A stretch of 64,000 nt of DNA from Amycolatopsis bartoniae (lineage in GTDB: Bacteria; Actinomycetota; Actinomycetes; Mycobacteriales; Pseudonocardiaceae), in assembly GCF_014191255.1 (NCBI RefSeq), contig NZ_JACHWH010000001.1:806001-870000 (forward strand). The letters run 5' to 3'. The notes under the pieces were generated by a model. It did not search any database and was not told the DNA's origin. It was given only the letters and a program-made list of their open reading frames with translations. Numbering within the stretch: the stretch's first letter is position 1; each line of letters opens with the position of its first letter. Below are positions 32,758 to 38,346 of this stretch, piece by piece. A program made the translations under genes and the position numbers.

Positions 32758-32767
32758 TGTGCCTTCC

Positions 32768-33214
32768 GTGCCACTCGACCAGTCGTTCATCGGGCGTAGC
32801 TATCCGCCGACCAGCACCTACGAGGTCGGCCGCGAGAAGATCCGGGAGTTCGCCGACGCGATCGGCGACGACAACCCGGTGTACCGCGACCCGGAGGCGG
32901 CGCGGGCCGCGGGCCACCCCGACGTCATCGCCCCGCCCACGTTCCTCACGGTGATCAACCTGGCGGCGATCAACACGATCGTCGCGGACCCGGAGCTGGG
33001 GCTGGACTACTCGCGGATGGTGCACGGCGACCAGAGCTTCCGCCACACCCGCCCGGTGCGCGCGGGCGACCGCCTGCGGCTGACGACGTACGTCGAGGAC
33101 ATCATGGCCCGTGCGGGCAACGACTTCCTGACCGTGCGCGCGGAGATCACCGACGAGGACGGCGAACCGGTGTGCACCACGCGCGCGCAGCTCGTGGTCC
33201 GGGGGGAGGCGTGA
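32768..33214 (+). CDS. hadA: (3R)-hydroxyacyl-ACP dehydratase subunit HadA
   Basis: This protein is 148 residues from GTG 32768, giving MPLDQSFIGRSYPP, the usual family start. A GTG 9 bases upstream is possible. The hot-dog fold lacks the catalytic His/Asp pair and is the stabilising subunit: YEVGREKIREFADAIGDDNPVY, GHPDVIAPPTFLTV and VHGDQSFRHTRPVRAGD. It pairs with HadB to dehydrate 3-hydroxyacyl-ACP in type II fatty-acid elongation (mycolate or long-chain acids in mycolic genera). The ribosome site is weak and translation may depend on the preceding gene. The stop overlaps the hadB start (TGATG). Confidence 0.9.
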   Translation: MPLDQSFIGRSYPPTSTYEVGREKIREFADAIGDDNPVYRDPEAARAAGHPDVIAPPTFLTVINLAAINTIVADPELGLDYSRMVHGDQSFRHTRPVRAGDRLRLTTYVEDIMARAGNDFLTVRAEITDEDGEPVCTTRAQLVVRGEA

Positions 33215-33615
33215 TGGCGTACACCGTGGGCGAGGAGCTGCCGGCGCTGAACGTGCGCGTGACGCGGGAGAGGCTGGTCCGGTACGCGGGCGCGTCGCTG
33301 GACTTCAACCCGATCCACTGGAACGAGCGGTTCGCCAAGGATGTCGGGCTGCCGGACGTGATCGCGCACGGGATGCTCACGATGGCGCTGGGCGGCCGGC
33401 TGGTCACCGACTGGCTGGGCGACCCGTCCCGGCTGCTCGAATACGGCGTCCGGTTCACGCGCCCGGTCGTGGTGCCGGACGACGAGGAGGGCGCGCTCGT
33501 CGAGTTCACCGGCAAGGTGGGCGAGGTCCGCGAAGACGGCACGGCGAGGGTGGACATCACGGCCAAGTTCGCGGGGAAGACCGTGCTGGGCAAGGCGACC
33601 GCCGTCGTGCGGTGA
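33214..33615 (+). CDS. hadB: (3R)-hydroxyacyl-ACP dehydratase subunit HadB (MaoC-like)
   Basis: This protein is 133 residues from ATG 33214. A MaoC hot-dog domain carries the catalytic segment DFNPIHWNERFAKDVGLPDVIAHGMLTMA, which has the Asp and His of R-hydratases. It forms the active subunit with HadA. In mycobacteria a hadC gene follows, then tRNA-Trp. Here hadC is absent and other genes separate hadB from tRNA-Trp. Confidence 0.93.
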   Translation: MAYTVGEELPALNVRVTRERLVRYAGASLDFNPIHWNERFAKDVGLPDVIAHGMLTMALGGRLVTDWLGDPSRLLEYGVRFTRPVVVPDDEEGALVEFTGKVGEVREDGTARVDITAKFAGKTVLGKATAVVR

Positions 33616-33700
33616 CGGGGTTCCGTAAAACCGGTTGGCCTGGCACGCGGCCGCTGCTACTTTTCCGGAGGCCGTGCGAGAGACCGAGGAGGTGGTACCC

Positions 33701-33751
33701 GTGAACGTTTTGACATGGGTGCTCCCCTCAGGGGTCACGGTCGGGCGATAG
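33701..33751 (+). CDS. Candidate 16-residue leader peptide
   Basis: GTG 33701 follows GAGGAGG by 8 bases, the strongest ribosome site in this neighbourhood, and encodes MNVLTWVLPSGVTVGR before TAG at 33749-33751. The last base of the stop is the first base of a hairpin that covers the ribosome site of the following hydrolase gene. The placement is like the leader peptides of inducible antibiotic-resistance genes, where a ribosome paused on the leader opens the hairpin. I know of no family with this peptide. CCCC-TCA-GGGG (33724-33734) inside it can form a further small hairpin. Confidence 0.55.
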   Translation: MNVLTWVLPSGVTVGR

Positions 33752-33797
33752 GTCGTCCGGGAGCGCCGTTTCACGAGCACTCCCGAAAGGCACGACC
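33751..33797 (+). promoter_or_regulatory. Hairpin sequestering the hydrolase ribosome binding site
   Basis: GGTCGT (33751-33756) pairs with ACGACC (33792-33797), and CGGGAG (33758-33763) pairs with CTCCCG (33780-33785). The Shine-Dalgarno GAAAGG (33785-33790) is held in the internal loop and the ATG starts at the base of the stem. A second GGTCG at 33739-33743 inside the leader ORF could pair instead with CGACC (33793-33797), offering an alternative fold. Confidence 0.6.
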
Positions 33798-34520
33798 ATG
33801 CAGTTCACTTCCGAACGGCGCCTCGACGACGGCGTCCTCGAACGCGAGTTCACCCTCGGCGAGATCCCCGGCATCCTGTGGACGCCCGCGTCCGCACCGG
33901 CCCCGCTGATCCTGCTCGGCCACCCCGGCGGCCTGGGCAGGATGTATCCCCGGCTGGTGGGCCGGGCCCGGCACGCCGCGAAGGACGGCTTAGCCTCGGC
34001 CACCATCGAGCTCCCCGGAAGCGGTGACCGGCCCCGTTCCGCCGCGCTGGAGGAGGCTCGCGCCGACCTGCGCCGGGCGATGGCGGCCGGAGAGCCACTG
34101 GACGAGATCGTCGACCGGCTGATCCTCCCGCTGGTCGAGAAGGCGGTCCCGGAATGGCAGGCGACCCTGGACGCCCTCCTCGCGCTGCCCGAGATCGGCG
34201 GCCCGGTCGGGTTCTCGGGAGGGGTGATCGCCATCGGCACCCGGCTGGCGGTGGTGGAGCCACGCATCTCGGCCGCCGTCCTGTTCGCCGGGAGCTTCGT
34301 GCCCCGCAGCATGTTCGAGGAAGCCCGGCAGGTCGGCATCCCGCTGCTGGTCCTGCTCCAGTGGGACGACGAGGGCAACGACCGGCAGGCGGCGCTGGAT
34401 CTGTTCGACGCGTTCGGCTCGAAGGAGAAGACGCTGCACGCGAACCTGGGCGGGCACACCGGCGTCCCACAGTTCGAGGGCGACGACGGAGGACGGTTCT
34501 TCGCGCGGCATCTGAAGTGA
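33798..34520 (+). CDS. Alpha/beta hydrolase (small, dienelactone hydrolase-like)
   Basis: This is a 240-residue protein with GAAAGG 7 bases upstream of the ATG. The alpha/beta-hydrolase fold is shown by PLILLGHPGG (oxyanion strand), ATIELPGSGDRP, the nucleophile elbow GFSGGV, a late Asp in LLQWDDEGND and a probable catalytic His in GGHTGVPQF. No signal peptide, so it is cytoplasmic. Substrate unknown. The leader ORF and hairpin upstream suggest inducible translation, perhaps by a ribosome-acting compound that the enzyme inactivates, but this is speculation. Convergent with the SGNH hydrolase gene. Confidence 0.82.
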   Translation: MQFTSERRLDDGVLEREFTLGEIPGILWTPASAPAPLILLGHPGGLGRMYPRLVGRARHAAKDGLASATIELPGSGDRPRSAALEEARADLRRAMAAGEPLDEIVDRLILPLVEKAVPEWQATLDALLALPEIGGPVGFSGGVIAIGTRLAVVEPRISAAVLFAGSFVPRSMFEEARQVGIPLLVLLQWDDEGNDRQAALDLFDAFGSKEKTLHANLGGHTGVPQFEGDDGGRFFARHLK

Positions 34521-34527
34521 GGTTGGG

Positions 34528-34635
34528 GCGGGCGGCAGGTTGATAGCACGCTGCGCGATGCCTGGGGTTGCCTCGTGCGCGGACTCGACCGGGCGCTGGG
34601 CGACCTCGACTGACCCGCTTCAACCTGCCGCCCGC
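34528..34635. repeat. 15-bp perfect inverted repeat between convergent hydrolase genes
   Basis: GCGGGCGGCAGGTTG (34528-34542) is repeated inverted at 34621-34635, 78 bases apart. The right arm lies inside the last codons of the minus-strand gene. A long-loop hairpin of this kind may end or protect both convergent transcripts. No T tract is present. Confidence 0.55.
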
Positions 34636-35507
34636 ACCACCGCGTCCGCCATTGCCTTCTCGCCGTTGGCGTTCGGGTGCAGGGCTGCCGCCGGGGCGGA
34701 CGGGACCAGGTCTTCGACCCACTTGACCGTCGCCTTCTGGCACAGGTCGTGGCCCTTGCTCGGCGTCGCCGTGTCGACGTAGTCCGCGCCGTGTGTCTTC
34801 GCCTGCTCCGCGAGCATCGCGTTCAGCCGGTCCGCCGTGTCGCGCAGGTACGCCACGTCGGCCGGGACCAGGGGCAGGAACGGGAAACACCCGTCGCCGT
34901 CGGGGAGGACCGTCGGGTAACCCACCAGCAGCACCCGGGCGTTCGGGGTCTTTCCGTGGATCGCCGTCAGCGCGCTGCCGACCTTCGCCGCCGTCTGGTC
35001 GATCCGCTGCGCCAGCTGGTCCCGGCCGCCCGCGGTCAACCTGTTCCGGCACGGCGTCGCGTTCACGTCGTCGGTGCCGCACTGCTGGATCAGGCCGATG
35101 AGCCCGACGTCGTTGCCCCCGATGCCGAGCGTCACCAGCACCGTGTCCGGGGTGAGGGCGTCGAGCTGCGGCGGGTTGGTGCCGTCGTTCGTGCGCTGCG
35201 ACTCGTACAGGTGCTCGGTGGTCGCCCCGGCGCAGCTGACGTCCACGAACTGCACCGGGTGCAACTCGGCCGCCACGAGGTGCGGGTAGTTGTTGTCCGA
35301 ACGCTGGCAGCCCACCGGCTGCCCGGCCGCGTTCCCGGTCCGCGGCGCCGACGTGTACGAGTCGCCCAGCGCGACATAACGGCCCGACTGCACGGGAACC
35401 GCGGGCGGTGACGCCGACGTGTTCTGCTGCGACCGGGAATACGCGAACGCGCCCGCGGCGACGATCACCGCGAGCGCGATCAGCCCGACGAGGAGTTTCC
35501 TGACCAC
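34620..35507 (-). CDS. Secreted SGNH/GDSL-family esterase
   Basis: This is a 295-residue protein. The N-terminal MVRKLLVGLIALAVIVAAGAF is a signal peptide or anchor. SGNH blocks are visible: GDSYTS (nucleophile Ser), the block II Gly in VSCAGATTEHL, GIGGND (block III Asn) and HPN near the C-terminus (catalytic His). Cysteines are spaced as in secreted actinobacterial lipases with disulfides. The GTG start at 35507 has GGAGG only one base away, an unusually short spacing, yet no other in-frame start exists. Directly downstream of the aminotransferase gene (14-base gap). Confidence 0.88.
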   Translation of the reverse strand: MVRKLLVGLIALAVIVAAGAFAYSRSQQNTSASPPAVPVQSGRYVALGDSYTSAPRTGNAAGQPVGCQRSDNNYPHLVAAELHPVQFVDVSCAGATTEHLYESQRTNDGTNPPQLDALTPDTVLVTLGIGGNDVGLIGLIQQCGTDDVNATPCRNRLTAGGRDQLAQRIDQTAAKVGSALTAIHGKTPNARVLLVGYPTVLPDGDGCFPFLPLVPADVAYLRDTADRLNAMLAEQAKTHGADYVDTATPSKGHDLCQKATVKWVEDLVPSAPAAALHPNANGEKAMADAVVRAAG

Positions 35508-35521
35508 CCCTCCAGGGTGCG

Positions 35522-36745
35522 CTACTTGGCCTCGGACAGCAGGTTGCCGACCCGCTGCACGCCCTCGACCAGGTCGGACTCCGCCAGCGCGTACGAGAAC
35601 CGGAAGTAACCGGGCGTGCCGAACGCCTCACCCGGCACCACGGCCACCTCGGCCTCGCGCAGGATCAGGTCCGCCAGCTCCAGTGAGTCCTTCGGCCGCT
35701 CGCCGCGGATCTCCTTGCCCAGCGCGCCCTTCACCGACGGGTACGCGTAGAACGCGCCCTTCGGCGTCGGGCACTCGAAGCCGGGGACCTCCGACAGCAT
35801 CGACACGATCTTCTTTCGGCGCACGTCGAACGCGGCGCGCATCTCGTGCACGATGTCCAGCGGCCCGGCCACGGCGGCCAGCGCGGCGCGCTGCGCCACG
35901 TTCGCCACGTTGCCGCACAGGTGCGTCTGGTAGCTCGACGCGGCCTTGACCACGTCCTGCGGGCCGATGATCCAGCCGACGCGCCAGCCCGTCATCGAGT
36001 ACGTCTTCGCGACGCCGTTGAGCACCAGGGTCCGGTCGGCCATCTCGGGGACCACGACGGGCAGCGAGTAGTTCTTCGCCTCGTCGTACACCAGGTGCTC
36101 GTAGATCTCGTCGGTGACGACCCAGATGCCGTGCTCGTAGGCCCACTTGCCGATCGCCTCGATCTGCTCACGCGGGTACACCGAGCCGGTCGGGTTGGAC
36201 GGCGAGTTGAACAGCAGCACCTTCGTGCGCTCGGTGCGCGCGGCCTCCAGCTGCTCGACCGAGACCAGGTAGTCGGTGGACTCGTCCGCGGTGACCTGCA
36301 CCGGAACGCCACCGGCGAGCTTGATCGACTCCGGGTACGTGGTCCAGTACGGGGCCAGCAGCAGCACCTCGTCGCCCGGGTCGAGCAGCGTGGCGAACGC
36401 CGAGTAGACGGCCTGCTTGCCGCCGTTGGTGACGAGGATCTGCGAGGGCTGGACCTCGAAGCCGGAGTCGCGCAGCGTCTTCTCGGCGAGGGCCTCGCGG
36501 AACTCCGGCAGGCCGGCGGCGGCGGTGTACCCGTGGTTCGCGCGGTCGCGCACGGCGGCCGCGGCGGCCTCGACGACGTGGTCCGGCGTCGGGAAGTCGG
36601 GCTGCCCCGCGCCGAAGCCGATCACCGGGCGGCCCTCGGCCTTGAGCGCCTTGACCTTCGCATCCACCGCGAGGGTCGCCGACGGCGTGATGCCGGCGAT
36701 GCGGGCCGAGATGCGCGGGCGGGTGACGGTTGCGGGAGAGGTCAT
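35522..36745 (-). CDS. aspC: Pyridoxal-phosphate aminotransferase, aspartate aminotransferase type
   Basis: This protein is 407 residues from ATG 36745. The open frame continues far upstream through the tRNA gene, but family alignment supports this start ([27 protein letters not shown]). It is fold-type I, class Ib: [45 protein letters not shown], the PLP lysine in [14 protein letters not shown] and YFRFSYA. It transfers amino groups between aspartate and 2-oxoglutarate, and relatives also accept prephenate. Divergent from tRNA-Trp/secE, the same neighbourhood as in Streptomyces. No strong ribosome site is visible. Confidence 0.92.
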
Positions 36746-36924
36746 GGCTTCATGGTGGCACGGCCGCCCTGTGATCAAACGCGCAGGGCAGGGCCTCGGG
36801 AGGGCTCGGTTGCGGGCCCACCCAGGGCTTGCCGTAGACTGCCGAACTTGGAACGTCCGGCGCGTGACCCCGCACGGGATGCGGGGTTGGTGAAGGGTGT
36901 CCGGCGAGCGGTGGTTCAGCTCGA

Positions 36925-36997
36925 AGGGGTGTAGCTCAGTTGGTAGAGCAGCGGTCTCCAAAACCGCAGGTCGCAGGTTCGAGTCCTGTCGCCCCTG
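36925..36997 (+). tRNA. tRNA-Trp (anticodon CCA)
   Basis: The acceptor is AGGGGTG/CGCCCCT, the D stem GCTC/GAGC, and the anticodon stem GCGGT/ACCGC with loop CTCCAAA (CCA). The T arm is GCAGG/CCTGT with TTCGAGT, and the discriminator is G. A likely -10 TAGACT lies at 36835-36840. A small hairpin (ACCCCGCA/TGCGGGGT, 36867-36887) sits between it and the tRNA. Confidence 0.95.
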
Positions 36998-37031
36998 CTT
37001 CGGCATAGGTGGTCCAAGCGGAGGAGTGGTC

Positions 37032-38346
<1,315 letters not shown>

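Follow-up and report, generated by a model that had tools for sequence, protein, structure and literature searches.

Upstream of an alpha/beta-hydrolase-fold gene of Amycolatopsis bartoniae lie a short leader frame and a set of alternative base pairings, which together probably form a ribosome-mediated translational attenuator that is switched by stalling at the leader start codon. The window, by which we mean the whole 64,000-nucleotide stretch of DNA analysed here, comes from a genome (G000) of 7.76 Mb. This genome holds one strong copy of the leader; the next-best match of our RNA model has an E-value of 0.7. The leader frame, three pairings between four recurring segments and the masking of the gene start all recur before other genes, and on this comparison of sequences translational attenuation is a well supported reading. 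Stalling at the leader start is favoured over an arrest peptide of the erm type.

Layout of the leader

The letters and coordinates of the leader and its hairpin were read directly at 33686-33797 (Table 1). An earlier note on this DNA had described a leader ORF with a strong Shine–Dalgarno (SD) sequence and a hairpin that masks the hydrolase start. Every coordinate and letter of that description was confirmed, the first residue, M, being encoded by GTG. The arrangement also goes beyond chance: the fold of 33680-33820 has a z-score of -3.0, none of 200 shuffles folds as well, and the leader is conserved in homologues.

Four segments recur among leaders of this type. Segment 1 is an extended SD with the start codon, segment 2 (GGGTGCTCCC) lies inside the leader, segment 3 lies behind the leader stop and segment 4 (TCCCGAAAGG) carries the SD of the gene. 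Pairings between them are written 1:2, 2:3 and 3:4 below.

Table 1. Features of the leader region, with positions in the window
Feature	Position	Strand	Basis or remark
WblC/WhiB7-like promoter	33626-33663	+	match to published consensus; conserved columns
Promoter parts	A-rich box 33626-33632; -35 about 33635-33641 (TTGGCC, or TGGCCT one base on); -10 TACTTT 33658-33663		
Segment 1, extended Shine–Dalgarno GAGGAGGTGGTACCC plus leader start GTG	33686-33703	+	largely invariant in the 68 and 50 aligned leaders; pairs with segment 2
SD1, AGGAGG	33687-33692	+	direct reading
Leader ORF VNVLTWVLPSGVTVGR, 16 codons and stop, GTG start	33701-33751	+	direct reading; homologues
Segment 2, GGTGCTCCC (leader +18 to +26), proposed switch strand	33718-33726	+	2:3 complementarity
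Extra GGTCG, clade-specific	33739-33743	+	group counts
Leader stop TAG	33749-33751	+	direct reading
Masking hairpin 3:4 over the hydrolase start	33751-33797	+	direct reading, folding, alignment, swap test
Outer stem, GGTCGT with ACGACC	33751-33756 with 33792-33797	+	direct reading
Inner stem, CGGGAG with CTCCCG	33758-33763 with 33780-33785	+	direct reading
Segment 3, GGGAGCGCC; predicted partner segment 2 (on) or segment 4 (off)	33759-33767	+	comparison
Hydrolase Shine–Dalgarno GAAAGG	33785-33790	+	largely within the internal loop that separates outer and inner stem; conserved
Hydrolase gene, ATG at 33798, 240 codons	33798-34520	+	alpha/beta-hydrolase-fold protein

A search of Rfam 15 with 33500-34000 of the window and with eight leader loci gave nothing above the gathering score; the sub-threshold matches were to CRISPR repeats and miRNAs only.

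The surroundings of the gene deserve a short description. Upstream of the hydrolase, at 32759-33615, are hadA/hadB-like genes whose NCBIfam matches fall below the cut-offs of those models. Within 32759-38346 they are a few kb from secE/nusG-like genes (names given partly by eye). The genes between the two groups are those for the hydrolase, for a GDSL lipase and for an aminotransferase-like protein, and the hydrolase may have been inserted there.

Conservation before hydrolase homologues

At an E-value of 0.001 the hydrolase has matches, some of them partial, in 12 of 19 genomes of the genus and 121 of 297 genomes of the family. Further matches comprise the best 80 named loci, which include Streptomyces, Nocardia, Kutzneria, Micromonospora, Pseudonocardia and Frankia, and 38 plasmid records. 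The leader is found in all of the best 80 named loci, most commonly with the peptide VNAVSTWVLPSGVTVGR, and its ORF is disrupted in two of them, in L098 by a change of frame and in L113 by a stop. By a strict pattern it precedes 126 of 129 loci with more than 60% identity to the hydrolase, a count in which some genomes occur twice. It is kept in the three plasmid copies examined as well (Rhodococcus jostii pRHL1, Nocardioides pNOCA01 and Streptomyces cynarae). Among divergent hydrolases the RNA skeleton is present, with other peptides, at 48 of 58 loci. The earlier note had staked its proposal on conservation in orthologous loci, and both the leader and its pairings are conserved there.

A recognisable leader was absent from 10 of the 58 divergent loci and from three close ones, one of which (L359 or L360) fails the strict pattern only; these loci were excluded from the leader counts. 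L012 and L015 have shortened leaders, in which segment 1 runs into a single CTCCTCCCGAAAGG and there is no segment 3. This is possibly a constitutive or differently regulated form.

One leader before five gene families

We searched genomes with two RNA models, R1 at an E-value of 0.01 and R2 at 0.001. In a draw of 296 genomes from the class Actinomycetia, R1 found 147 places in 89 genomes and R2 matched 94 genomes; in a phylum-wide draw R2 matched 20 of 296. Five R2 matches outside the class were marginal (E 0.001-0.008) and are not counted. We classified 130 places by the gene behind them, namely 125 of the 147 R1 places and five found by R2 only, leaving out 22 R1 places. A hydrolase homologue stands behind every one of the first 30. 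Sixty weaker R1 places gave 37 methyltransferases, 12 hydrolases, 8 patatins and 3 GNAT genes, and 40 further places gave 8, 12, 1 and 5 of these together with 14 Rox genes. The totals are 54 hydrolase, 45 methyltransferase, 14 Rox, 9 patatin and 8 GNAT places.

The family names rest on the representatives scanned. Three methyltransferases matched TIGR03704 (PrmC_rel_meth) with 412, 388 and 409 bits (cut-off 249), two patatins matched PF01734 and one GNAT protein PF00583. For Rox the model was NF033145, rifampin monooxygenase, with 847, 799 and 792 bits, so that one of three lies above the cut-off of 800; the nearest solved structure of a Rox representative is 5vqb. Rox-family genes stand under the leader at L326-L330, L332, L335, L336 and L353-L358, and rifamycins do not target the ribosome. 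TIGR03704 itself was found in 58 of 118 genomes. When 200 nt upstream of 30 methyltransferase loci were examined, 13 had the leader, one of these degenerate (L278), and it was missing before the other 17, the source genome's own methyltransferase included.

The genes under the leader thus encode hydrolase-fold, PrmC-related, Rox, patatin and GNAT proteins, and no rRNA methyltransferase was found among them. Because five or more unrelated gene families of Actinomycetia share the module, it has the look of a reusable, stress-responsive 5′ leader.

Pairing evidence

Pairing was followed in two alignments of leaders chosen for diversity, A1 with 68 leaders and A3 with 50 leaders from all groups but Rox. 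The sequences are related, so the pairing counts below are inflated and the shuffle figures should not be read as probabilities. In A1, 99.5% of 612 cells show the 2:3 pairing, compared with 45-59% when the partner is slid; the corresponding figures for A3 are 94.6% of 500 cells and 46-68%. Changes in 2:3 within the close set A1 are one-sided only, with nothing beyond shuffles. In the diverse set there are seven two-sided changes against 1.9 in shuffles, a number reached in 2 of 500 shuffles, and by our reading of the alignment they fall mostly in methyltransferase leaders.

For the other two pairings, A1 gives 91.3% paired for 1:2 and 96.8% for the inner part of 3:4; together these have eight two-sided cells against 2.0 in shuffles, all of them in 1:2. 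In A3 the two pairings are formed in 80.3% of cells against 25-59% for slid partners. They show 25 two-sided cells against 17.0 in shuffles, with 1 of 500 shuffles as high, and a control structure slid by two columns still gives 21. Some of the 1:2 signal comes from the last base of the start codon, whose partner is C for GUG and AUG and G for AUC.

In an alignment-free test that swapped partners among 81 non-redundant leaders, a leader's own 1:2 and 3:4 pairings were on average more stable than swapped ones over all groups, and none of 5000 permutations did as well. For 2:3 over all groups, swapped partners were as stable (3547 of 5000). Since 2:3 is as stable with any partner, its complementarity is mostly frozen, not covarying. 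Support for the pairings is weaker within single groups than over all groups: swapped partners were as stable in 1068 (3:4), 822 (1:2) and 312 (2:3) of 5000 permutations within methyltransferase leaders, and in 175, 0 and 3207, respectively, within divergent hydrolase leaders.

The strand that changes partner is another point on which comparison helps. In the window's minimum-energy fold the leader-internal GGTCG pairs with CGACC, and a small GGCGA/TCGTC hairpin spans the stop codon; the two GGTCG copies are thus alternatives, each of which masks the ATG. This second GGTCG had been put forward in the earlier note as an alternative partner of CGACC. It does pair so in the fold, but it leaves the ATG masked, and it is clade-specific: we find it in 116 of 126 close homologues, in 6 of the 45 leaders of divergent hydrolases, 6 of the 42 of methyltransferases and 5 of the 14 of Rox genes, and in none of the 9 patatin and 8 GNAT leaders. 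For the latter reason we rejected it as a general switch strand. The alternative common to all groups is the pairing of segment 2 with segment 3, which is absent from the earlier note.

The 2:3 complementarity also bears on another account, that reinitiation after the leader stop raises expression with no switch involved. The leader is near the gene and the position of its stop is conserved, as reinitiation would have it. That said, the conserved 2:3 complementarity is left unexplained, and the distance from stop to start is 46 nt here, compared with a peak at 10-11 bp that is reported for reinitiation in Actinobacteria (PMC4833913). We consider this account very improbable.

Start codons and reading frame

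The most surprising part of the finding is the set of non-AUG leader starts. In the close hydrolase clade the leader begins with GTG in 125 of 126 cases. ATG is used in 12 of 14 Rox and 8 of 9 patatin leaders, and GTG in 7 of 8 GNAT leaders. Starts that end in a pyrimidine are found in 43 of 45 methyltransferase leaders (ATT 23, ATC 17, GTT 2, GTC 1) and in 25 of 48 divergent hydrolase leaders (ATC 20, ATT 4, GTT 1). Frames that begin at such codons are kept in the methyltransferase leaders of L199-L253 and in L140-L149.

The frame set by these codons is kept. Leaders range from 14 to 26 codons in length, and the frame closes just 5′ of segment 3 in 122 of 126 close hydrolase leaders, where the other two frames do so in 0 and 2. 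Taking all start types together, it closes there in 41 of 42 methyltransferase leaders (other frames 10 and 8) and 42 of 45 divergent hydrolase leaders (other frames 11 and 4). The same is true of 9 of 9 patatin, 8 of 8 GNAT and 14 of 14 Rox leaders. Translation either begins at the AUU, AUC, GUU and GUC codons, each preceded by a near-perfect SD, or enters the frame in some other way. A GTG inside the SD was considered as the start of the AUU and AUC leaders. In nearly all of them this GTG shares the frame, so that frame by itself does not decide against it. It is a poor candidate, though, because it would overlap its own SD, and in L245 it stands in a different frame while the ATT frame is kept. 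A weak leader start may serve to keep basal firing low.

These starts suggest a sub-form of the start-stalling explanation, in which a poor start codon (GUG, AUU, AUC, GUU or GUC) on a near-perfect SD would act as a sensor of initiation fidelity. The RNA would then read the dwell of the 30S or 70S initiation complex, as set by IF3 or by drugs acting at the initiation stage. The pyrimidine-ending starts, the kept frames and the retained ATT frame of L245 all speak for it. The Rox, patatin and GNAT leaders and the close hydrolase clade speak against it with their ATG or GTG starts, the window itself having GTG, and we regard this sub-form as possible but doubtful.

Ribosome footprints and the proposed switch

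We simulated a ribosome footprint on 72 of the 81 non-redundant leaders, those with a placed downstream SD, Rox not included. The mean unpaired probability was computed first and the opening energy afterwards. By the first measure there is no switch in hydrolase leaders (0.44 to 0.46), and methyltransferase and patatin leaders go from 0.32 to 0.42-0.43 with the footprint at codon 1. By the second, a footprint on the start codon lowers the energy for opening the gene's SD and start by 2.14 kcal/mol on average (p 1e-11); the fall exceeds 0.5 kcal/mol in 52 of 72 leaders and does not in 20. A footprint on codons 3-7 stays near baseline, a difference of 2.20 kcal/mol from the start codon. If segment 2 is scrambled, which also breaks 1:2, the start-codon footprint brings a fall of only 0.03 kcal/mol.

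The spacing agrees with stalling on the start codon. The GGG of segment 2 begins at +16 to +23, mostly at +17 or +20, and a ribosome stalled at a start codon is reported to have its downstream edge at +18 (PMC12121999).

The window's own leader (L001) behaves differently from the average: a start-codon footprint moves its opening energy only from 11.5 to 11.0. As the equilibrium evidence for the window is weak, co-transcriptional folding would have to matter here. A footprint at codons 16-17 has the larger effect (8.7 and 8.1 vs 11.9). This fits an attenuator like those of cat or erm genes, in which drug-dependent arrest late in the leader lets the stalled ribosome melt the 3:4 hairpin directly. 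The leader stop abuts the hairpin, and within the close clade conservation of the peptide STWVLPSGVTVGR is high. However, this conservation coincides in part with RNA pairing, and a terminating ribosome would get equally far without the drug. We looked for a conserved nascent-peptide arrest sequence and did not find one: the peptide is conserved in the close clade only, and the other groups differ in peptide, in length and in the reading frame of segment 2 (by our own reading, INAVNPDGRSSTLPA in L141). Arrest late in the leader is therefore unlikely in our view. The erm-type attenuation proposed in the earlier note holds for the layout, with the leader frame, the three pairings and the masking recurring; it does not hold for the peptide, whose conservation ends at one clade, and the spacing points to start-codon stalling more than to nascent-peptide macrolide arrest.

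We propose that, in the absence of stress, the leader would be translated with 1:2 and 3:4 paired, as comparison supports, and that the hydrolase start would be masked. A ribosome held on the leader start codon would cover segment 1 and end at about +18, leaving segment 2, or most of it, free. The free segment 2 could then pair with segment 3, as the computed geometry and energies allow, which would release segment 4 and let the hydrolase be translated. Anything that halts ribosomes during initiation or in the first step of elongation, be it a drug or another stress, would act as the trigger, and the precise peptide would matter little. Lincosamides, streptogramin A and pleuromutilins (PMC12421871) and tetracycline and retapamulin (PMC12121999) are described as stalling ribosomes at the start codons of uORFs, and these drugs are therefore predicted inducers of the leader.

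Promoter

A second layer of control may act on transcription. The published WblC consensus consists of GAAAWY, a -35 element TKGMNN and a -10 element TANNNT (PMC7157823). The window promoter agrees with it at 11 of 13 scored positions when read as AAAACC, TGGCCT, a 16-bp spacer and TACTTT. In the close hydrolase clade the mean score is 11.26 of 13, against 8.05 in shuffled sequence (125 loci), at a similar distance to SD1 in most loci. Divergent hydrolase loci score 9.76 against 8.03 (38 loci) and GNAT loci 11.67 against 8.38 (3 loci), and in Rox leaders an A-rich box, TTGGAC or TGGACG and TAGCTT can be seen by eye. To this extent the hydrolase, GNAT and Rox copies resemble the WblC/WhiB7 regulon. 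Unlike them, the methyltransferase and patatin copies lack the motif, with scores close to those of shuffles (8.30 vs 7.93 in 37 loci and 8.62 vs 8.16 in 8 loci), and the leader RNA is a separate layer.

One of eight WhiB matches in the source genome has a C-terminal RGRP AT-hook, which makes it WhiB7-type by motif only. Judging from the promoter motif, WhiB7/WblC probably raises transcription in the same stress.

The hydrolase

An AlphaFold2 model of the protein has an alpha/beta-hydrolase fold with a pLDDT of 92.8. There was no match to Pfam or NCBIfam at an E-value of 0.001. The best Foldseek match is the cold-adapted esterase 4ao8 (TM 0.76, 28% identity), and a profile search matched 4ao6 at E 7.8e-48. 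The protein shares with this esterase (4ao6/4ao7/4ao8) the fold and the aligned QWDDE and GxHxxVP motifs. It differs at the nucleophile elbow, which is GLSMG in the esterase and a shorter loop in the close hydrolase clade.

All 125 close homologues have the late GxH (or Y) and WDD motifs. No conserved nucleophilic serine was found among them: 75 have Ser at that position, 40 have Ala, 4 Glu, 1 Thr and 5 another residue. Some divergent members have GxSxG, others Asn, Thr, Asp or Ala. Because the serine is variable, the protein should not be called a serine esterase. Catalysis without a serine is possible, and so is a binding role. Action of the hydrolase on a ribosome-targeting compound is at most conjectural, given this variable nucleophile and the presence of the same type of leader before methyltransferase, patatin, GNAT and Rox genes. 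The most likely role of the protein is detoxification or sequestration in the antibiotic response.

Relation to known systems

Attenuators of the erm type, such as that of ermC, have a short leader ORF and four pairing segments, and their masked start is freed by a stalled ribosome. The leader described here is like them in its short ORF with a strong SD, its four segments and its masked downstream SD and start. It is unlike them in that no arrest peptide is conserved beyond one clade, the spacing fits start-codon stalling, and one leader type serves five gene families, none of them 23S rRNA methyltransferases.

Other uORFs are closer in the site of stalling. The toiL uORF upstream of topAI in E. 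coli frees a downstream SD when ribosomes stall at its start codon, and several drug classes act on it (PMC12121999). By its description, toiL differs in its genes and phylum and in that Rho-dependent termination is part of topAI control. Stalling at the start codon is also described for the are5sc and tiaA uORFs of Streptomyces (PMC12421871) and for the cplR uORF of Clostridioides (PMC10201436). The drugs that cause it are lincosamides, streptogramin A and pleuromutilins, the first two in Streptomyces, and for cplR translational attenuation comes on top. Those uORFs are 3 to 9 codons long, precede ABC-F genes and have predicted terminators.

The terminators predicted for are5sc and tiaA (PMC12421871) raise the question of transcription attenuation, by a terminator and antiterminator as in ARE-ABCF leaders. 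By reading, no intrinsic terminator of the kind seen with the ARE-ABCF start-stalling uORFs was found in the window leader; there is no T run after the hairpin, and the gene start lies directly behind it. This mechanism is scarcely credible here.

For the Rox genes a different element should be mentioned, the rifamycin-associated element, a 19-bp palindrome reported upstream of rifamycin-inactivation genes (PMC10194278). In the open-licence PMC text we found no paper on the leader peptide, and among the matches listed none describes the leader in its title or the start of its abstract. The principle that stalling on a uORF can unmask a start is known; a common leader before five gene families and its non-AUG starts appear to be new.

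What the leader may mean

We tentatively suggest that this single class of leader RNA is a general sensor of translation initiation. A near-perfect SD would be joined to a deliberately weak start so that basal firing is low, a longer dwell of the initiating ribosome would flip the RNA, and five or more unrelated protein families would have taken up the module. The link to Rox raises the question of why a rifamycin-type enzyme should be under a translation sensor.

If stalling at the leader start is indeed the switch, a widespread translational attenuator, so far without a name and common to unrelated actinomycete genes, would be added to those known. The leader offers a testable case of conserved non-AUG starts in regulatory leaders and, if these starts are used, the AUU and AUC leaders would amount to a large natural collection of bacterial non-AUG regulatory start codons. 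Its sequence could also serve to find intrinsic-resistance genes, among them those for a hydrolase fold that lacks a fixed serine, a PrmC paralogue, a patatin and a GNAT protein.
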